From assembly GCF_900110485.1 (NCBI RefSeq), contig NZ_FODY01000012.1, forward strand, positions 1-64,000: a stretch of DNA of 64,000 nt, written 5' to 3'. The notes under the pieces were generated by a model that was not told the origin of the DNA, ran no database searches, and was given only the letters and a program-made list of their open reading frames with translations. Below, in pieces: positions 1,601 to 51,012 of this stretch (position 1 is the first letter of the stretch; each line of letters opens with the position of its first letter). The DNA comes from Propionispora vibrioides (GTDB taxonomy: Bacteria > Bacillota > Negativicutes > Propionisporales > Propionisporaceae). The position numbers and the translations under genes were made by a program.

Positions 1601-4510
1601 TTATAAATCTTGCAGGAGAACTTCTCTGACTTCCATCGCACTCTGCGTACCTAACAAACGTTCCACCAAATCATCATTCGTCAGCCGTTCCCCCAGGTCC
1701 TGCACGATTTCCTTGCCATCGGCAGTTACCGCCAGCATACAGACTATATTTACCCGGTAATTTTCCCCCCAGGGAACCGCCTCGGGAAATACCGCCAACG
1801 CCGCTGAAGTTTGTTGAATATAACGGGGATCTTCGCCATGAGGAATGGCCACCCGCAGGCTCAATACCGGTACACCGATTAACTCCCGCTTCATTACGTC
1901 AGCCGCAAACTGAGGCTTAACCAGATTCCGGCTAATCAGACTTTCCGCCAGCAGTTCAATAATCTGCGGCTTGCTTGCCTCCTGATTGGGAAAGAAAATA
2001 AGCTCTTCTTTAATAATATCCTGTAAAGATGCCGGCTTATAAGCCATCGGTTTAAAAACAGACGGCAGATTGTTACTCAATACCTGCTCGACCGTAATGA
2101 AGGGAACCCCAGGAATATGAGGATCCAAGGTTCCAACGACAGCCTGGACGGTACGGGTACTCATAATTTGCCTGACCTGTTGCGTAAACGACTGGCGGTC
2201 GGCCAGTCCCAGGCAAATAATTTCCACACCGCCGGCTTGCCCCAGTTTCCGTTCCAATTCCTTTTGCAACTGCAGCGCTGCACCTTGACCGGTAATGCAG
2301 ACCGATAAAATCACCGGCTTGCCTGACGGATTATGCAACAGCTCCTGTTTTACACTGGTCATACCTATGCAGGACTGACCTATACTGTCCGCCAGTTCTG
2401 TCAGACTGGCTTCCGGCAGCAACGCACGGCGAACAGCTTCAATGACCATCATAGTGTAAACCGGCCCGACCGACCGGACCGGTATGCCGGTCAATTCGGT
2501 AATCCGGGTGCTAAAATCAGCCAGCGATCCCATATCGACTAAAAAAAGCACACCCTTGCCTTCATCGATCTGCATCACCAGCTCCACCGTACGCTCTAAT
2601 GCTGTTTCCGGACTTTCATCCAGCGACATCTCCACGGCTTTGGCATGATTTACGCCTAACAGACGATTGGCTACTTCCGCCATGCCCGCCGCCACATGAC
2701 CGTGCGACAACACCAGGATTCCCACTCTGCCCTCATTATCCTGACGGCAGTACATAGTTAAATATAATGTAATAAAACCAATCTCTTCCTCCGGCAGCCG
2801 GATTCCCGTATGCCGGGCAAAGCATTCGGCCATATCCTGGGCTATGGCAAATTCACGGGCATATTCATGCTTTGTTTTTTCCAGGTGGGGATTCATAATC
2901 GCCTTATTCTGTTTGAGACGCTTTAACGTTTCAGTCAAATGAATAGATAGTCCAACCACAATCCGTTCATTGGCATGTCCCAGCATCGACTCGGCCCGTT
3001 CCAGCATGCTTTCCACAATATCAACAATCGGCCGGCCTACCACCTTGTATAAATCGGCCTTGTTAACAAGTTCCGCCGTTTCATCCGCCCGCTTGATCCA
3101 CTGGCGAAGCTTATCTTCCAATTCCGCCCCAATAATCCGGTTTAGCTCCTTTTGCGAGAACTTCTGGCGGGAAAGTTCTCCATACCGCTCCTCAATATAC
3201 GAGTATATCTCGCGCGGCCAGGTATACAGCTCATCCATATATACCATATTGTCTTTACCGGGCGCGATTTCATAGCCGGTTACCCGTAATTTATCCAGTT
3301 TATCCTTCTGGTGCCGCACTTTAAGCAGTCCGCGGCGGGCATGGGCCGGCAAATCGGCCACGGTAATGGAAATATTCCGGTTACCGCCGGTAATCAAATT
3401 TAAGAATCCCCGGGCACAGGCAACCTGTATGTCGGCGGACAGCTGACCGACATTGCCGGTACAATCATACAGCAGCAAGGCGCGCACCGCATCGGCATCA
3501 ATAGCCAGGGTATTGCCGGTGCGCTGCGCTTCATGCCGCAAAAAATGATGAATCAGCAACAACCGTTCAGACAGCGGCCTTTCCTGCAGGCTGGGCAGTT
3601 CAATGACCATTGGGACACGCCGCCTAAAGGTCGCCAGCAGCGAGGCCGACGGCAACTCGGTAGTAGCCATAATCAGCATAACTGAAGCCTGCCGCAGGCT
3701 TTCGGTCTCGCCCAAGCGCCGGAACCGCCCCTTGTCAATAAGATAAAACAAAATTTCCTGTCCCTCCGGCGGCAGGCGATGAATCTCATCCAAAAACAAA
3801 ATACCCTCATTGGCTTTTTCAATCAAGCCTTCTTTCGGTCGTTCCGCACCGGTAAACGCTCCCTGCACATGTCCACACAGTTGCGAAAGCAACAGTTGGG
3901 GATTGTCGGCATAATCGGCGCAGTTGAACATTACAAAGGGCGCCGTTGCATTAAGTCTGCCCGTCTCTACGGCAAAGCGGTACATAGCTTCCGCCAAATC
4001 GCTTTTACCAACACCTGTCGCACCAAACAGCAGCGTATGCAGCCCCTTGGGAGGATAGAGAATAGCTGCCTTGGCCTGCTCAATGGCAGGAAACAGACTC
4101 CCTTTTTGACCGATCAAATGCCCAAACGCCATACCGGTAATTTCTTTACCGCCATATTCTGCCACCGGCTGCTGGATGCCCGGCGGCACCGCAGCTTCCG
4201 GTGACTGGCGGTATGTATCATTTTGCAGTAATTGCTCCGTAGTAAAGCGGGATACGGCAAATCCCATCTGGCGCAGCTTTTCGGTCACAGTCCGCTTTGC
4301 CAGATAAGGATCGCTGTCCATAATCTGCCGGATAGCTTCACATAATACCGGCCTTCTTCGTTCCCTTGAATCGGGAATCTTCATTCTCTGCCGCAGAAGA
4401 GTTGCTTCGCCCCGGGAAATTGCCAGTTTTTGTGCCAGTTCCTGATCGGTATAGGGATTTTTTTTATCTTCACTGCCAAGCAACAACCGCAGACTGTCTG
4501 CTTTCCCCAA
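1601..4510 (-). CDS. LevR-type sigma-54 activator with PTS domains (first paralogue)
   Basis: 969 residues. Order seen: N-terminal winged/HTH region (about 1-60), AAA+ sigma-54 activator domain with Walker A GATGVGKS (163-170) and the sigma-54 contact loop GAFTGA (217-222), a PRD around 470-590 (His524, His548), a mannose-type EIIA domain (SHGH, His603), an EIIB-Gat-like segment with CITGQG (about 730-815), and a C-terminal galactitol/fructose-type EIIA (AIPHGE, His891). Classical LevR ends in a second PRD; here an EIIA domain stands in that place. The start is TTG behind GGAGGA. It is the last gene of the EIIABC-aldolase operon, so it presumably senses flux through that PTS by phosphorylation and activates the sigma-54 promoter at 7577-7592. 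Confidence 0.9.
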   Translation of the reverse strand: MGKADSLRLLLGSEDKKNPYTDQELAQKLAISRGEATLLRQRMKIPDSRERRRPVLCEAIRQIMDSDPYLAKRTVTEKLRQMGFAVSRFTTEQLLQNDTYRQSPEAAVPPGIQQPVAEYGGKEITGMAFGHLIGQKGSLFPAIEQAKAAILYPPKGLHTLLFGATGVGKSDLAEAMYRFAVETGRLNATAPFVMFNCADYADNPQLLLSQLCGHVQGAFTGAERPKEGLIEKANEGILFLDEIHRLPPEGQEILFYLIDKGRFRRLGETESLRQASVMLIMATTELPSASLLATFRRRVPMVIELPSLQERPLSERLLLIHHFLRHEAQRTGNTLAIDADAVRALLLYDCTGNVGQLSADIQVACARGFLNLITGGNRNISITVADLPAHARRGLLKVRHQKDKLDKLRVTGYEIAPGKDNMVYMDELYTWPREIYSYIEERYGELSRQKFSQKELNRIIGAELEDKLRQWIKRADETAELVNKADLYKVVGRPIVDIVESMLERAESMLGHANERIVVGLSIHLTETLKRLKQNKAIMNPHLEKTKHEYAREFAIAQDMAECFARHTGIRLPEEEIGFITLYLTMYCRQDNEGRVGILVLSHGHVAAGMAEVANRLLGVNHAKAVEMSLDESPETALERTVELVMQIDEGKGVLFLVDMGSLADFSTRITELTGIPVRSVGPVYTMMVIEAVRRALLPEASLTELADSIGQSCIGMTSVKQELLHNPSGKPVILSVCITGQGAALQLQKELERKLGQAGGVEIICLGLADRQSFTQQVRQIMSTRTVQAVVGTLDPHIPGVPFITVEQVLSNNLPSVFKPMAYKPASLQDIIKEELIFFPNQEASKPQIIELLAESLISRNLVKPQFAADVMKRELIGVPVLSLRVAIPHGEDPRYIQQTSAALAVFPEAVPWGENYRVNIVCMLAVTADGKEIVQDLGERLTNDDLVERLLGTQSAMEVREVLLQDL

Positions 4511-12136: not shown

Positions 12137-12283
12137 ACCAAAAAAACTATCTTTCCATGATCGCCAACGCTTCTGGTCCGGCGGCTTGGCGGCATGGTAC
12201 TACATTTTTGCCAACAGTCCATACATTTCGTGCATATCGACATATCCATTTACGCATCCCGGCCAGCAAAAGGGATCGTCGCT

Positions 12284-12520
12284 CTAAGAAAAGCGCAATA
12301 GCCTTGTTCTTTGGTTCTTCGTTCGGCCTTTTCTGGAAAAATACGTTCCGTAGGATGAAAAATTGCCGGCTTACGTTAAGAAATCCGTTTGTTTGAGCGT
12401 TAGCGAGTTTACGGATTTTAGTAAGCCGGCAATTTTTCAAGTATTTTGGAAGACAGGCCTAGCCTTTTGGGTCCCTTTGTGGCAATGACAAAGGGACGAT
12501 AAGCTGTTTTTCCACACTAC
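12284..12520. repeat. Dispersed modular hairpin repeat family A, copy 1
   Basis: Inverted copy of 50690-51012. Core: perfect 19-bp arms at 12356-12374 and 12421-12439 (TGAAAAATTGCCGGCTTAC and complement), with an inner AAATCCGT/ACGGATTT pair (12381-12388, 12411-12418). A second stem GTCCCTTTGT/ACAAAGGGAC is at 12471-12480 and 12488-12497. The flanks also match. It fills most of the 511-base gap between the EIIC stop and the dehydrogenase. Small frames across it are byproducts of the palindrome. Confidence 0.85.
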
Positions 12521-12563
12521 AGACTGTTATAAATAGAATCATGTTGTGACAACCCCGGACAAC

Positions 12564-14886: not shown

Positions 14887-17775
14887 TTAGGAACTGCTTC
14901 GCATCTCCCGATAGAGCGTTTCTTTTAGCTCAAGCATATTTTTGCTTTGTTTCAAACTGTCAATCAGCTGCATTTTTAGGAATGGCCGCAAAATCCCCTT
15001 GACCATCTTCTTATCATTCACCTTAAAGGCCGGTAAACAGGCCATTTCGACCGGTCCGCTGCCCCAGATAATAGGCTGCTTCAGCCTGGCAACCACGATA
15101 GCCGATTTATGTACGGCCAGCGAATCGCCATGGGGAAAGGCAATGCCGCCCTTCATAAAGGTAGGAGCGATAGCCTCCCGCCGGAATACCGATTCTAAAA
15201 ACTCCTTCCGGACATAACCTTTATTGATCATCAGCAGGCACATGACCTCAATTAGTTCTTTCTGCGAACGGGCGTCCGACTCAAACACGATCAGATCATC
15301 CTTGGAAAAGCCCGCCAGTTCATCTACCTGCTGCGCCGCCAGCACATAATCCAGTTCGCGGATACCCGCTTTGGCCATGCCCGGCTCATAGACGATGAAA
15401 TGGAGCCCTTCAATTTCCGGGTTGATGGTACCGATCAGGGCCAGAATCTGATAATTCTGCTGGATCTCGACCAGCTTGTTTTTTAGCTGCTCATCCATCG
15501 CCCCGACCTGGAAAACCGTTACCCCGGGATACTTCTCCTCCAGCAGCCGCCGAATATGGCAGGCTGTACCTTCACCGGTCAGGCAGACCGCCACCAGCGC
15601 CAACGGCCGGGCCGGTTCATTAATCGTCAAAACCGGATAATTATAACGGGATTTGAGCAGGCTGGAGTAAATTTCGTCCAGCTCATTTTCCGGGATAGAC
15701 GCCTTGCGAACGGCCTCAATCACCGTTACCAGATCCACCCTGTCCAGTGTCCGGGTGGGAATCGCCAGCTTGTCTGTGACGATCTTGCCCACATTGGTTA
15801 GTGAACCCATATCAACCAGAAAAAGAATGCCCTTTCCCTCATCAATAATTTGGGATATGCCGATAATCTTTTCATAGATAATGGAAGGCGCCTCATTGAG
15901 CGGCATATCAATGGCCACCGGGAACTGCACGCCCAGCAACTCCTTAACCACAGTAACAATCTCGGTGGCAATCCGTCCATGAGATACCACCACGACACTG
16001 ACCCGGTTTTCAAAAGGCTTTTTCTCAATGGCGGCCTTGATATACATGGCAATAAAGCCGATTTCATCCTCCACCAGATCCAGTTGCTTGCGTGTTGCCA
16101 GTTGTCCGGCAAACTGCACCGCCAACTGATACTCCCGTGAAAAGTCCTGTTTGATCTTAGGCAGGTTGATATTGATGATCTGCTGCTTCAGCCGGATGCG
16201 TTTGACTGTTTCCTCCAAGTGGATGGCCAAATGAGTAAAAATGCTTTCGTTCACATCATGGTACAGCCGTTCCTGGATGAGTTGCAGCCGCAACTCTTTA
16301 ACCAGCTCAATAATGTCCTTATCCACAATATTGACCAGTTCGTTGAGCGAAACATACTTGGACTTGGTATTGCCGCTTAATTCCAGGTTATTGAACTTGT
16401 TGATAATGAAACTCCACAGAATCTCTTCCACTTCCCGGGAGTCCATATTAAACTTGGTCAGTTCTTTGTATTTCTGTTCCATCTGCCGGTAAAAGTCCTC
16501 CGGCAGCGAGTAAGAGCCTTCCTGCATGTGCTTGATGAAGCTGGCTTTATTATTAAGGAAAGGAATAAACATCATATCCTGGATGTACTTGCGGACTTTC
16601 ACCACATTGACATCCTCCAGGGCAAAATCCTGCTGCATAGTGTTGGTCTCCAGCACATCCTCGTAACCAATGCTGATAAACTCTTCATTTTTGCCAATGT
16701 ATTTCATAAATGCCCTGGCACAGATCACCTGAATGGTACTCTTTAACTGACCGATATTGCCGCCAAACCGTTTTAGTGACAGGATTTCAATCACCTTGGC
16801 CTCGACGAACACCTTTTCATTGACCCGGTTACATTCCTGTTGAAAGAAGTCGTAAATAATCTCCACCTTCTCCAAGAACGAACGCTGCTGAAGCGAAGGA
16901 ATCGAAATGATCATCGGAATGCGCCGCCGGAAGCTGAGCAGCAGGCTGGATTCGATATTTTCCGTAGTGGCACCGATAAAGATGATGTTGACCCGCCGTT
17001 CATCCTTGGTTTCGCCCAGCCGGCGAAACTGCCCCCGGTCGAGAATGGAAAACAGGATTTCCTGCCCCTTAGGCGGCAACCGGTGGATTTCATCCAAAAA
17101 CAGCACTCCGTTATGGGCCTGCTCCACCAAACCTTCCGTATCACTGTCGGCGCCAGTAAAGGCACCCTTCTTATAGCCATACAGCAAGGACAGCAATAAC
17201 TGCGGATTGTCGCCATAGTCGGCGCAGTTGAACACAATAAAAGGCCTGTCGTCGGCAATCACCTGTTTCTGCCTGGCGAAGTTATACATGCATTCGGCAA
17301 ACTGGGTTTTTCCCACCCCGCTTTCCCCAATAATCAGCGTAGGCAGTCCAAAGGGAGGATACAAAATGGCCGACTTGGCCTGATTGACCGGTTTTTCCAG
17401 ACTGCCGTGGCAGCCGACCAGTGCCTGAAACGGATTGACCGTATCCCTGACGCAAGCTTCTTCCACCGGTGCCGGAATGCCCGTCTCCCTAAGCAGCTCT
17501 TCCACCACATGGCGGGAAATGTCAAAACCCCGTTCCATCAATCGCTTAGTCGCTTCAGCCACCGTCATTTTACTGCTTTGCCGGAACAACTCCTCAATGG
17601 CTTTCTTCAGGTAGGGCTTGCGCCGTTCCCGTGAGTTGCCCATGGAAAGCTCCTTGCGCAGCATAGTCACCGTCTCCCGGGTGGTGGACAGCATCTTAGC
17701 CAGACGCACATCGGTAAAAGGGTCCTTGGGATTTTCCGACCGTATAATGTTTACCAGTTTTTCCTTTAAATCCAT
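14887..17775 (-). CDS. LevR-type sigma-54 activator with PTS domains (second paralogue)
   Basis: 962 residues from ATG 17775, chosen because GAGAGG lies just upstream and because the -24/-12 promoter at 17806-17821 sits inside the longer frame that runs to 17832. Walker A GESGVGKT (150-157) and GAFTGA (204-209) mark the AAA+ domain; then PRD, mannose-type EIIA (VVSHGRIA), EIIB-like segment (CLTGEG) and C-terminal EIIA (AFPHGD). First gene of its operon and therefore apparently transcribed by sigma-54 itself, implying autoactivation on top of some basal expression. Confidence 0.9.
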   Translation of the reverse strand: MDLKEKLVNIIRSENPKDPFTDVRLAKMLSTTRETVTMLRKELSMGNSRERRKPYLKKAIEELFRQSSKMTVAEATKRLMERGFDISRHVVEELLRETGIPAPVEEACVRDTVNPFQALVGCHGSLEKPVNQAKSAILYPPFGLPTLIIGESGVGKTQFAECMYNFARQKQVIADDRPFIVFNCADYGDNPQLLLSLLYGYKKGAFTGADSDTEGLVEQAHNGVLFLDEIHRLPPKGQEILFSILDRGQFRRLGETKDERRVNIIFIGATTENIESSLLLSFRRRIPMIISIPSLQQRSFLEKVEIIYDFFQQECNRVNEKVFVEAKVIEILSLKRFGGNIGQLKSTIQVICARAFMKYIGKNEEFISIGYEDVLETNTMQQDFALEDVNVVKVRKYIQDMMFIPFLNNKASFIKHMQEGSYSLPEDFYRQMEQKYKELTKFNMDSREVEEILWSFIINKFNNLELSGNTKSKYVSLNELVNIVDKDIIELVKELRLQLIQERLYHDVNESIFTHLAIHLEETVKRIRLKQQIININLPKIKQDFSREYQLAVQFAGQLATRKQLDLVEDEIGFIAMYIKAAIEKKPFENRVSVVVVSHGRIATEIVTVVKELLGVQFPVAIDMPLNEAPSIIYEKIIGISQIIDEGKGILFLVDMGSLTNVGKIVTDKLAIPTRTLDRVDLVTVIEAVRKASIPENELDEIYSSLLKSRYNYPVLTINEPARPLALVAVCLTGEGTACHIRRLLEEKYPGVTVFQVGAMDEQLKNKLVEIQQNYQILALIGTINPEIEGLHFIVYEPGMAKAGIRELDYVLAAQQVDELAGFSKDDLIVFESDARSQKELIEVMCLLMINKGYVRKEFLESVFRREAIAPTFMKGGIAFPHGDSLAVHKSAIVVARLKQPIIWGSGPVEMACLPAFKVNDKKMVKGILRPFLKMQLIDSLKQSKNMLELKETLYREMRSSS

Positions 17776-17805
17776 TTCATGACCTCTCTTCTGCTTACTA
17801 TACTT

Positions 17806-17821
17806 TGCAAATGCCGTGCCA
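17806..17821 (-). promoter_or_regulatory. Sigma-54 promoter before the second levR
   Basis: Minus strand reads TGGCAC-N5-TTGCA, a full consensus, 30 bases upstream of the ATG at 17775. It would drive LevR-EIIA-EIIB-EIIC. Confidence 0.9.
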
Positions 17822-17991
17822 TACAAAAACACAAATTACCTTTTCCTTGTCGCAAGCCATTTACCGGCCTGTTCGTATGACGGCTTACATTTTCCGAAAT
17901 CTTCATACAGTTTCCGGCAGGTGTTACTTTACAAAAACGCAGTGTATGATATGACTGTGATAAAATTCCATTTTCATCCAGAACATAACTA

Positions 17992-23770: not shown

Positions 23771-23831
23771 CTTACATGCTGACAAAATGTCTTTTCATTT
23801 ATGTCCTTATCTTTCGTAGTACCTTATCAGC

Positions 23832-23935
23832 CTTAATTCAGTGAATACTGGCGGTCTATTTTCCGCAGCGCTTCGTTGTCGTCAGTCAGCATACTGACGG
23901 TATGCCTCCTTCCTTCGTCTCGCGCTGCAAAAAAT
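23832..23935. repeat. Dispersed repeat family C, copy 1
   Basis: Contains CTTCGTTGTCGTC and an inner palindrome around GCATACTGACGGTATGC, enclosed by outer arms CTATTTTCCGCAGCGC (23855-23870) and a near complement ending about 23935. Related to 48240-48330 and more weakly to 61708-61768. It forms the 3' end of the small ORF beside it. Confidence 0.5.
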
Positions 23936-24097
23936 AGCCTCGCCATCCTCCTCCTGTATTAAGACCGACAAGCTACTAGGAACCTTCTCAATCTTGATTA
24001 GAAACTGCTCTGCTTTACCGCGTATCAGGACTTCCTTGTACTCGAATAAACTGTATATCTTGTCGCCCGGTTGCAGCGTTTTCATTTTATTGGCCAA
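23882..24097 (-). CDS. Small protein of unknown function
   Basis: 71 residues from a TTG start behind AGGAGGGG. Unrecognised. Residues 1-55 look like an ordinary small soluble beta-rich protein (LQPGDKIYSLFEYKEVLI); the last 15 residues (CSARRRKEAYRQYAD) are encoded by the dispersed repeat, so the original C-terminus was probably replaced by repeat insertion. It lies 92 bases after the SorC stop and before the terminator. Confidence 0.5.
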   Translation of the reverse strand: MANKMKTLQPGDKIYSLFEYKEVLIRGKAEQFLIKIEKVPSSLSVLIQEEDGEAIFCSARRRKEAYRQYAD

Positions 24098-38932: not shown

Positions 38933-38991
38933 CTCCTTTGTTTACAAAGAATTTTTGCTAAAACCAGCAGGAATTACTTTGCCAATTGTTC

Positions 38992-41707: not shown

Positions 41708-42184
41708 TTATTCACCTCCTTCCAAGCCAAGTTTTGCACTGACCAGTTCTCTAATTACTGTTTTGGAAGCTGCGGTTGCTAGTGTAGTCAGTGCGCTTTC
41801 ATCCTGAAAAATTTGCATCAATTTCTGCAGCAGTTCAAGCTGAGCATGGCTTTCTTTCATCGCCAGCATGAACACCACTTTTACCGGGACAGTACTTTCT
41901 TCCTCTCCCATGATGCCGAAATTGACTTCCTCTTTCAAGACGCCTACGCTAATGGCAGCTTGATTGACATGTTCAATGTCCGTATGGGGTATGGCTACAC
42001 CCACACTGGATGTCGGCAATCCGGTGGCAAAATTGTTTTCTCTGTCTTTGATTGCCTGTTTATAACTTTCTTTTACCATACCCTGTTCACACAGGTTGGC
42101 TGCCATACATTCCAATACTTCCATATTAGTTTTGGCTTCTATGCCGGTAAGTATCAATGTTTCGGTAAAATTAATCTTGCTCAT
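41708..42184 (-). CDS. PTS EIIA, galactitol/fructose type (fourth set)
   Basis: 158 residues, His67 in AIPHTD as phosphoacceptor. Its start overlaps the end of the LevR gene by 14 bases, indicating coupled translation of regulator and transporter. Confidence 0.9.
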   Translation of the reverse strand: MSKINFTETLILTGIEAKTNMEVLECMAANLCEQGMVKESYKQAIKDRENNFATGLPTSSVGVAIPHTDIEHVNQAAISVGVLKEEVNFGIMGEEESTVPVKVVFMLAMKESHAQLELLQKLMQIFQDESALTTLATAASKTVIRELVSAKLGLEGGE

Positions 42185-45119
42185 TCAGTAAGACCTCCCT
42201 AAATTCCTGTACACTTTGCAGCTTTTCCAATTGTGCTACAAGTTCATCGTTTTTAAATGTATTGTATAAATAGCGCACACCGTCTTTGCCATTGATGTCG
42301 AGAGCCAGGAGACAGATAATGGATACCTGGCTTTCCTCGTCCCAGACAATCGGTTCCGGCATTTTGGCTATCACAACAACAGAATGATTCACATAGCTGC
42401 TATCAGCATGGGGCAGGGCGACCTTTTGATTGATGACATAGCTGCCCATGCTTTCACGTTCCAGCACGGCTTCATAATAGCCGGGCTTCACGTAGCCTTC
42501 TTTGATAATGCTGTCGCAGAGAACCTTCAAAAGCTCCTGTTTGGTCTTAATAGCAGGCATCATCACAATCTTAGCTTCACGAACCACGTTGGGAATCAGG
42601 TTGTGGTAGCCGCTGATCAGGCTGAATTTGCTGCCATGATCCAGCAGATTGATGATTTGCTCTTTGCCGTTGACATTCAGCAGATCCTCCATCGACACAT
42701 AAGGAATACCATAATATTTGGGATCGATGCTGCCAATAATGGCCACAATTTCGTACTGGTTCATCGTTTCCTGAATCTGCTTGTACAGGTCCCTTTTGCC
42801 GATAACTCCCATATGAATAATGGCTACGTCTTTCAGTTTGTCCCCCAGCATCTTTTTTAATAAACGGCTGCAGTGGATTGCCATTCCCTCCCCGGTTAAG
42901 CACAGGGATATAATAGCTTTCTGACGCTTCGGCAGGTTTTGGTTCACCCGGGTTTTCTTAAACGTGTAGTTCAGAGTTTCTATGGCGTATACGACATCCC
43001 GCAATGTGGAGCCGGGCAGCAGGCTGCGCCGGATGGCCTCAATGACCATAACGGTGTCCACCCGGTCGATCGTCTCAACCGGAATGCCGGTGCGCTCGTA
43101 AATAATCTCACCAAAGGTGAGGAGCGAGCCCATATCCACCAGCAACAACACGCCTTTTCCCTCATCGGCGGCATGCACCACCGAAACCATACGTTCAAGC
43201 ACTTCATGGGGATTTTCTTCCAGATTCATGACTACAGCCTTACCATGGTTGACATTGAGCAGCTTATTGGCGATTTCCACCATACCGCTGCCGGCATTGC
43301 CATGAGTGACCACCAAAACAGCGACCTTGGCCTCGTCTTCTTCCTTGTTGCCATGCAGATAAAGCGCGATAAACCCGACTTCATCCTCCGGCAATTCCAG
43401 GCCGTAATACTTCTTAATATAGTCCACCATGGCCAAAGCCACGGTATATTCTTCACTGCACTTTACCTTGATGTCTTCCAGATTCGGATTGACAATTTCC
43501 CTGCCTTGTTTCAGCCGGTTGAAGGTGGCATTCAGATGAATCGCCAGGCAATAGAAGATGGAGGCATCCATTTTACCCAGCGCCGCTTCGGCAATCTTCA
43601 GGAGTTCTTCCACCAGGGCAATTGTCTCGGTTCCGACTACCTTGGCCACCTCATCGTGCGAAATCGGCGACAAACTGCCTTTTACGTGCTTGATAACCGT
43701 TTGCAGCTTCTTTTCAATCTGGCTGCCCAGCACACGGCTGATTTCATGGGTGGTTAAGCCTTGCTCCAAGTACTCGGTATACGTCTTTTCGATATAACCG
43801 TAAAATTCTTTGGAAAAACTATAAATGTCATTTTCGATATTATTTGAAATATGATGCCGTTCCGGACTAAACCTAAAATCCTGCCAAATCAGCGTGTCAA
43901 TTTCCTGACGTTTGCTGTTGATTTTCATAAGTCCCTTTTTGACATGAACATTTAAGTCCCGGACATCAATATTGACGCATTCATCCTTTTCCATGACAAA
44001 GGCCAGAAAACTTTTGGCGCAAATTACCTGAATATCACTCTTAAGCTGACCAATATTCCCCAGACATTCATAAAGCAAAAATGATTTTATCACATCCATG
44101 GATACGTGAATCGGCGCATTCATCCGCGTGGATTCGTAACCAAAGAAGGTCTTGATCAGTTTCAGGCGTTCATTCAGCGGCCGTTCTCTAAGCGACGGCA
44201 TTTCAATAATCATCGGAATCCGCCGTTTAAAAGTTGCCAATAGCGAAGTTTCAACATTTTCCGTTGTGGCGGCAATAAGCTGCACTTGCACTTCACGGAC
44301 AAACTCCGATTCGCCTAACCGGCGGAACCGCCCTTTGTCCATCAGATGGAACAGCATCTCCTGGCCTTCCGAGGTCAGCCGGTGGACTTCATCAAGAAAC
44401 AAAATACCGCCGTGGGCCTGTTCCACCAAACCCTTGCGATCACTGACCGCACCGGTGTACGCCCCTTTCACGCTGCCGAACAGGTGTGAAATCAAAAGCT
44501 GTCCGTTATCGGCATAGTCGGCGCAGTTAAAGACAATAAACGGGGCTTCCGGCGGCAAGCGCTTGCTTTCCACCGCAAATTTGTACATAGCTTCCGCCAT
44601 TTCACTTTTCCCTACCCCGGTTTCGCCTAGGATCAGACAATGCAATCCATTGGGCGGATACAGCATCGACGCTTTCGCCTGCTGAATCTGCATTTCCAGA
44701 CTGCCACTGGCGCCTACCAGATTGCTGAAAGCCATATAGTGGCCTCCATCCGCTTCCGGTACGACCTTCGAAGCCTTTTCCAGGGAAGTGCCCGTATTGT
44801 CGGCAACCCGCTGAACCGGCGCACGCTCTTCCACTTCTTCCAGATATTTATCCAGCAAATAGCGTGAAACCTGATACCCTTCTTTTTTCAAAGTCTGAGC
44901 CAGCTCACGGTAAGCCATCTGTCTGTTGCCGGCCAATAGATTGCTGATTGCCTCACAGATATACGTTTTTTTACGTTCCCGTGAGTCGGCAATATTCAAG
45001 TCTTTACGCAACAGTGTCACATATTCGCGGCTTACAGCCAGCTTGTCGCTCAGCTCCATATCGGTAAAGGGTTCTTTGCGGTTCTCTTGCAGTATGATAT
45101 CGCGGAGTTTATCTTTCAC
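42171..45119 (-). CDS. LevR-type sigma-54 activator with PTS domains (third paralogue)
   Basis: 982 residues from GTG 45119 with AGGAGG seven bases upstream. Walker A GETGVGKS (165-172). The sigma-54 contact loop is GAYTGA (219-224) rather than GAFTGA, a substitution known in some activators. Then PRD, mannose-type EIIA (VVTHGNAGSG), EIIB-like segment (CLTGEG) and C-terminal EIIA (ALPHAD). First gene of the pentitol operon and itself behind a -24/-12 promoter, so it is predicted to be autoactivated. Confidence 0.9.
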   Translation of the reverse strand: MKDKLRDIILQENRKEPFTDMELSDKLAVSREYVTLLRKDLNIADSRERKKTYICEAISNLLAGNRQMAYRELAQTLKKEGYQVSRYLLDKYLEEVEERAPVQRVADNTGTSLEKASKVVPEADGGHYMAFSNLVGASGSLEMQIQQAKASMLYPPNGLHCLILGETGVGKSEMAEAMYKFAVESKRLPPEAPFIVFNCADYADNGQLLISHLFGSVKGAYTGAVSDRKGLVEQAHGGILFLDEVHRLTSEGQEMLFHLMDKGRFRRLGESEFVREVQVQLIAATTENVETSLLATFKRRIPMIIEMPSLRERPLNERLKLIKTFFGYESTRMNAPIHVSMDVIKSFLLYECLGNIGQLKSDIQVICAKSFLAFVMEKDECVNIDVRDLNVHVKKGLMKINSKRQEIDTLIWQDFRFSPERHHISNNIENDIYSFSKEFYGYIEKTYTEYLEQGLTTHEISRVLGSQIEKKLQTVIKHVKGSLSPISHDEVAKVVGTETIALVEELLKIAEAALGKMDASIFYCLAIHLNATFNRLKQGREIVNPNLEDIKVKCSEEYTVALAMVDYIKKYYGLELPEDEVGFIALYLHGNKEEDEAKVAVLVVTHGNAGSGMVEIANKLLNVNHGKAVVMNLEENPHEVLERMVSVVHAADEGKGVLLLVDMGSLLTFGEIIYERTGIPVETIDRVDTVMVIEAIRRSLLPGSTLRDVVYAIETLNYTFKKTRVNQNLPKRQKAIISLCLTGEGMAIHCSRLLKKMLGDKLKDVAIIHMGVIGKRDLYKQIQETMNQYEIVAIIGSIDPKYYGIPYVSMEDLLNVNGKEQIINLLDHGSKFSLISGYHNLIPNVVREAKIVMMPAIKTKQELLKVLCDSIIKEGYVKPGYYEAVLERESMGSYVINQKVALPHADSSYVNHSVVVIAKMPEPIVWDEESQVSIICLLALDINGKDGVRYLYNTFKNDELVAQLEKLQSVQEFREVLLNEQD

Positions 45120-50689: not shown

Positions 50690-51012
50690 ACTAGCTTGTC
50701 GTCCCTTTGTCATTGCCACAAAGGGACCCAAAAGCTAGGCCTGCCTTCCAAAAAACTTAAGAAAAGACTTGGCTTGTGTCGAATCCCTAAGGACGTAGAC
50801 AGAAGCCTTAGTCGTTCTTACTTATGATCAGAAGGTCTATGCTTTCTGATCATGTGAAAAATTGCCGGCTTACTAAAATCCGTAAACTCGCTTCGCTCAA
50901 ACAAATACCCAAAGGGCACAGCGCGGATTTCTTAACGTAAGCCGGCAATTTTTCATCCTTCGGAACGTATTTTTCCGGAAAAGGCCGAACAGGGAACCAA
51001 AACAAAGCTATT
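50690..51012. repeat. Dispersed modular hairpin repeat family A, copy 2
   Basis: Inverted relative to 12284-12520. Same 19-bp arms (50855-50873, 50937-50955) and same GTCCCTTTGT/ACAAAGGGAC stem (50701-50710, 50718-50727). It carries about 85 extra bases with two more stems (CTAAGG/CCTTAG at 50787-50811 and ATGATCAGAA/TTCTGATCAT at 50824-50853) and about 20 extra bases in the main loop. Occupies most of the gap between the convergent encapsulin and hexokinase genes. Confidence 0.85.

Follow-up and report, generated by a model that had tools for sequence, protein, structure and literature searches.

A mobile, gene-less repeat with a conserved fold and one constrained strand in Propionispora and other Negativicutes

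The intergenic block at 12284-12520 of the window (the whole 64,000-nucleotide stretch of Propionispora vibrioides DNA that was analysed) is a copy of a dispersed element that occurs about 25 times in this genome. That the element is mobile, structured and constrained on one strand is firm; the route of its movement we infer. The reading that we favour, tentatively and at somewhat less than even chances, is that of a gene-less, non-autonomous element spread in trans through a folded single strand, which would probably be single-stranded DNA.

The block and its second copy

The block overlaps only one short chance open reading frame and lies between genes for an alcohol dehydrogenase and a PTS permease, which are encoded on the - strand. 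As the original prediction stated, it encodes nothing and no transposase is adjacent to it. The stems described in that prediction were all recovered: the perfect 19-bp stem TGAAAAATTGCCGGCTTAC/GTAAGCCGGCAATTTTTCA pairs 12356-12374 with 12421-12439, the nested stem has 8 bp (12381-12388 with 12411-12418) and the second, 10-bp stem belongs to a separate hairpin at 12471-12497. The extent of the block was refined, since the conserved structured core covers 12325-12462 and the mobile unit probably reaches the terminator-like hairpins on both sides, at about 12274-12554. The core is much more stable than its shuffled versions (z of -6.9 when folded as RNA and -8.3 as DNA, with none of 200 shuffles equally stable) and scores 155.7 bits against a covariance model built from 12 copies of the element.

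Along the + strand, the T1 hairpin and GGCC come first, followed by the 7-bp stem, the mini-hairpin UCC-GNA-GGA and the variable stem of 18-19 bp; next are the internal loop GTTAAG, an inner stem and the apex TGTYTGAGCGNAGCGAGTT, after which the 3' arms, AGGCCTAG and the hairpins HP3 and T2 complete the element. The fold common to the copies is multi-branched with a closing stem, and its internal loop reads GUUAAG as RNA. The parts found in the window are as follows.

12274-12303, + strand: T1, a degenerate terminator-like hairpin (GGCTGTTGCGCTAAGAAAAGCGCAACAGCC-type in other copies) at the 5' end of the block; most A-type copies here and in the sister genome G002 have it beside the core
12325-12462, + strand: structured core GGCC...AGGCCTAG, 138 nt, supported by the covariance model score and the fold z-scores given above
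12338-12344, + strand: 5' arm AAAATAC of the 7-bp stem, partner 12441-12447; helix 2, with 100% of cells paired and four pairs changed on both sides
12346-12356, + strand: conserved mini-hairpin TTCCGTAGGAT (UCC-GUA-GGA); helix 3, TCC/GGA invariant in all aligned copies
12357-12374, + strand: 5' arm of the long variable stem; helix 4, with 19 pairs, 11 of them changed on both sides, and 96.7% paired
12375-12380, + strand: conserved internal loop GTTAAG, opposite TA at 12419-12420; it recurs in large hairpins of distant Firmicutes
12390-12409, + strand: apical motif TGTTTGAGCGTTAGCGAGTT, a GNNA variant of TGTYTGAGCGNAGCGAGTT, supported by motif counts against a reversed control
12421-12438, + strand: 3' arm of the long variable stem, supported by the covariation of helix 4
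12471-12497, + strand: HP3 downstream hairpin GTCCCTTTG-TGGCAAT-GACAAAGGGAC, common to nearly all copies
12522-12554, + strand: T2 terminator-like hairpin at the 3' end of the block, kept in A-type copies
50735-50986, - strand: core of the second copy, long form, with extra hairpins at 50758-50852 and a loop insert, recognised by its sequence match to the first copy
50701-50727, - strand: HP3 of the second copy, with coordinates taken from the sequence

The inverted match to 50690-51012, on which the idea of a repeat had been based, was confirmed with 94% identity over 78 nt, 100% over 38 nt and 78-88% over about 100 nt. The second copy is longer owing to a 17-nt loop insert and to an extra block of hairpins of about 115 nt, which is characteristic of the long form of the element. 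In G002, the spacer of this second copy is swapped for 1.95 kb of unrelated sequence. Elsewhere in the window, three related stretches were observed: at 14887-17832 and 42171-45119 lie genes for related PRD/sigma-54 activators of PTS operons, and the third stretch, at 3704-4084, has similar DNA.

Size and distribution of the family

The count of about 25 copies in the Propionispora genome derives from 26 BLAST matches and 26 covariance-model matches, some places having been counted twice. About 22 copies are present in G002, about 46 in G038 and 69, the highest number per genome, in G007. Within the class, 16 of 60 relatives sampled were positive, and a search of 380 Negativicutes genomes, in which no more than eight candidates were scored for each genome, found the element in at least 59. 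Its occurrence is patchy: a single copy is present in G026, closely similar to copies of G035, a member of a different family, and the other sampled members of the genus of G026 carry none. No match to the whole block was found in the plasmid and phage collections. No Rfam family (release 15, 4227 families) gives a match that reaches the gathering score or a believable weaker one, and no description of the element was found in Rfam or in the open-access literature searched; the broad kind to which it belongs, structured repeats without a gene, is already known (PMC2267715, PMC3116915).

Two subfamilies were distinguished. Copies of subfamily A are dispersed, and those of subfamily B mostly follow 5S rRNA at a distance of about 240 nt, one copy being near 6S RNA. 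At two loci (L081 in G031:C94 and L085 in G016:C90), copies about 200 bp apart alternate in orientation in a BIME-like manner. At another locus, three consecutive cobalamin riboswitches, spread over less than 1.1 kb, lie downstream of a copy of the element (L003, 1951-2987).

Compensatory changes and constraint on one strand

The alignment of 12 copies strongly supports that compensatory base changes keep the fold of the element. In this alignment, 95.2% of the cells are paired against 83.6% after shuffling, 55 cells show changes on both sides against 18.4, and the covariation score is 0.332 against 0.123; none of 500 shuffles reached the observed values of pairing, double changes or score. 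Slid structures, used as control, gave 30-55% of paired cells, a comparison in which the real structure has some advantage as it came from one member. The copies were aligned with MAFFT and not by fitting to the model. The abundant compensatory changes, together with the copy number, establish the block as a member of a genuine dispersed repeat family, as had been proposed.

In the long stem, mismatches read on the + strand are G·T in 93 cases and A·C in 11 (79:11 as distinct events), the counts being drawn from related copies so that p-values overstate their independence. Equal numbers of both kinds are expected if no strand-specific constraint exists, and this bias is thus read as a constraint acting on one strand. 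It amounts to 42:5 for left-hand genes in the direction of the element and persists at 27:3 for those that oppose it. Read-through RNA is therefore not needed to explain the bias and, as its sole source, is unsupported. In the genus g11, the bias is lost or reversed on the + strand (A·C 20, G·T 10, p 0.10), and the data consequently do not fit one simple strand rule.

Filled and empty sites in sister genomes

Copies of the element are recent and mobile. Among 15 copies of the Propionispora genome (G000) compared with G002, three (L004, L009 and L011) are missing from the sister, and the four G002-only copies tested are all missing from G000. In all these cases, the spacer of the empty site contains an unrelated terminator-like hairpin, and at the filled site the complete block is present together with terminator-like hairpins of its own. 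At the readable sites of the outgroup G001, yet other sequences were found, mostly hairpins and without the element, which indicates that the block is the gain. General turnover of spacers was considered as a cause of the empty sites and rejected: when 52 spacers of the sisters were compared, 47 proved alignable over more than 80% of their length, among them three convergent spacers that lack the element, and the other five hold an element site or another MITE. Furthermore, core types or forms are exchanged in place between the same flanks of sister genomes at three loci (L003/L125, L018/L116 and L002/L126).

No target duplication was detected at the seven resolved filled/empty pairs of G000 and G002, where the whole spacer is exchanged. 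The suggestion that the block is MITE-like holds in the loose sense of a mobile element and finds no support for a classical MITE with terminal inverted repeats and target duplication. The comparison of the sisters could have revealed such a duplication, as the CTAG duplication of a separate 150-bp MITE is visible in it. The window carries at 23820-23975 a MITE-like element of 150 bp, its ends being TACCTTATCAGCC.../...GACAAGCTA, which is missing from the orthologous G002 site; another member of its family sits inside the G002 copy L126 and shows a clean CTAG duplication there. Opposite window position 38990, G002 (C6, within L180-L184) carries a MITE-like insertion of its own of 160 bp, with ends near TAGGGAACC.../...CAACCCTAG.

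Gene context and replication polarity

The copies favour the 3' ends of genes, with 28 in convergent and 6 in divergent spacers, and the left-hand gene runs in the direction of the element in 55 cases against 19, in counts for which genes were called by longest open reading frame and orthologous copies were partly counted twice. In G029, a member of the genus g11, all 22 copies are oriented according to GC skew and change direction with it between 633 and 653 kb, where the skew itself reverses, and the left-hand genes are mixed (15:7). The other genomes of this genus agree for 8 of 9 copies, giving 30 of 31 for the genus. In G007, 47 of 68 copies fit the skew (p 0.09), and in the group of the window the polarity is modest and confounded with gene orientation. 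Replication polarity is thus a strong clue in g11 and unproven for the group of the window.

Degenerate tracts rich in purines (GAGTAGAGGGAGTAAAG..., AAGTGGAAAGTAAAAAGTGG...) and tracts of TTCGCGTTTTTCGCG are found repeatedly in the flanks of G029 copies (L323-L342) and of L081; both are also present at one empty site.

How the copies may spread

In the explanation that we tentatively prefer, the constrained strand would be recognised, as a folded single strand, by a host- or element-borne enzyme acting in trans. This strand would most probably be DNA exposed at the replication fork, on the lagging-strand template. A copy would then be placed into a 3' spacer during replication or repair, without target duplication, and would remain as a passive terminator or spacer between genes. 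The block had also been described as a possible structured RNA or regulatory module. Its structured nature is upheld by the covariation and by the strand-specific wobble bias and, between RNA and single-stranded DNA, the polarity data lean to the latter. A functional non-coding RNA or 3'-UTR element, whose transcribed fold (a terminator, a stabiliser or a protein-binding site) would be under selection and whose spread would be secondary, is in our estimation unlikely, at about one chance in four. Compensatory change and the tolerance of G-U pairs on one strand are what such an RNA would display, the preference for gene 3' ends (28:6) and for co-directional left-hand genes (55:19) is compatible with it, and several copies follow 5S rRNA by about 240 nt or are close to 6S RNA. 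Against it, the strand asymmetry is as strong where the left-hand gene opposes the element (27:3), a consensus scan showed no promoter between T1 and the core, the swapping of core types at one locus is hard to square with a locus-specific function and, in g11, polarity tracks replication and not genes.

Movement as a classical MITE by the DDE transposase of an insertion sequence located elsewhere in the genome appears improbable. The element is short, gene-less, intergenic and present in many copies, and some copies have imperfect outer inverted repeats, which are not uniform (GGGCTGTYGC...GCAACAGCCC in L004 and L009, 14-22 bp in g11); but the seven filled/empty pairs show no target duplication although CTAG was seen for a different MITE, the entire terminator spacer is exchanged, and a constraint on one strand is unexpected under double-stranded cut-and-paste. 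We hold to be equally improbable that homologous recombination or gene conversion among copies, with import of spacers from relatives, accounts for the spread with no transposition enzyme. The replacement of whole spacers and the in-place swaps of core types and of long and short forms at the three loci named above are in agreement with recombination, but new loci were gained where no homologous copy stood, and the spread across families (G026 and G035) requires a first insertion. The least probable of these explanations, with very little chance of being correct, is a satellite of REPIN/RAYT or IS200/IS605 type mobilised by a Y1 transposase, despite the hairpins, the lack of target duplication, the replication polarity of G029 and the single-stranded DNA logic that such a satellite would share (PMC6006769, PMC3116915). 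Thirty Y1/RAYT loci gave no match to the element or its model, the motif was found at none of 22 RAYT loci scanned, and the RAYT and Y1 loci carry other repeats. Moreover, G038 contains no Y1 gene (PF01797 match) despite its many copies, and Y1 genes are equally common in genomes without the element; Y1/RAYT was accordingly rejected as partner. A search within 2.5 kb of the copies for a recurring neighbour gene gave none: the top clusters were shared mainly by orthologous loci or among scattered open reading frames without a common position, and neighbour genes were discarded as candidates. The analysis found neither an insertion-site rule nor a transposition intermediate.

Comparison with known repeats

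Like bcr1, ERIC, RUP and BOX (PMC2267715), the element is a short, intergenic, gene-less repeat with conserved secondary structure and tens of copies per genome. It probably differs from them in sequence and fold, bcr1 being judged by its description (PMC2267715), and it combines a class-wide distribution with in-place module swapping, terminator replacement and strand-specific wobble bias. REPINs associated with RAYT are likewise non-autonomous, form hairpins in single-stranded DNA or mRNA and at times make alternating arrays (PMC3116915), as the element does in G031 and G016. The core of the element, at about 138 nt, is longer and contains a three-way junction, and no RAYT is linked to the element, the RAYTs in these genomes lying beside different repeats. 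With IS200/IS605 and their satellites (PMC6006769), it shares the single-stranded DNA logic of a lacking target duplication and, clearly in g11 only, an orientation that follows replication; it differs in that G038 has many copies without a Y1 gene, and no subterminal hairpin and guide arrangement was shown for it. MITEs are, like the element, small, intergenic and numerous, and some copies of the element have imperfect inverted-repeat ends, but the element has no target duplication and is constrained on one strand. The covarying multi-helix fold recalls the structured RNAs of Rfam, none of whose families it matches.

If the explanation by a folded single strand is correct, it would add a gene-less mobile family which keeps a complex fold on one specific strand and by which the 3' ends of transcription units are remodelled between sister species.

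The apical motif

The middle base of the apical motif is free, with A, C, G and T all occurring, and its loop exists in GNA and GNNA variants. We take the apex to be a GC-GNA-GC mini-hairpin flanked by G·A pairs, which can be formed on this strand only; a free middle base is expected of such a fold. The motif is present in 87 viral contigs and its reversed pattern, the control, in 1, many of the 87 being near-identical, streptococcal-looking prophage contigs. Six of 119 genomes of the phylum contain it, in several copies each, with no control hits, and in distant Firmicutes it tops large hairpins, some of which also carry GTTAAG. The literature searched for the apical sequence gave only unrelated papers in which the letters are present by chance.

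It is possible, though we consider it rather doubtful, that the element is part of a very widespread and unnamed superfamily of large folded elements, defined by the apex TGTYTGAGCGNAGCGAGTT and the GTTAAG/TA loop and present in several bacterial lineages and in prophages. Its members would move as folded single strands during replication by means of an undescribed recognition system and would turn over the terminators of their hosts. The apical motif, with its 87 to 1 excess in viral contigs, offers a handle for finding the protein that recognises the element; with such a protein in hand, the spread of short hairpin repeats without RAYT would become directly testable.

Among the viral contigs (L223-L302), many prophage contigs that are nearly identical have the motif at a fixed position (..CAAGTGGTTTGTTTGAGCGAAGCGAGTTAAATAAATTATC..); in others it lies within a repeat together with TTTTTAGG/CCGTTAAG.
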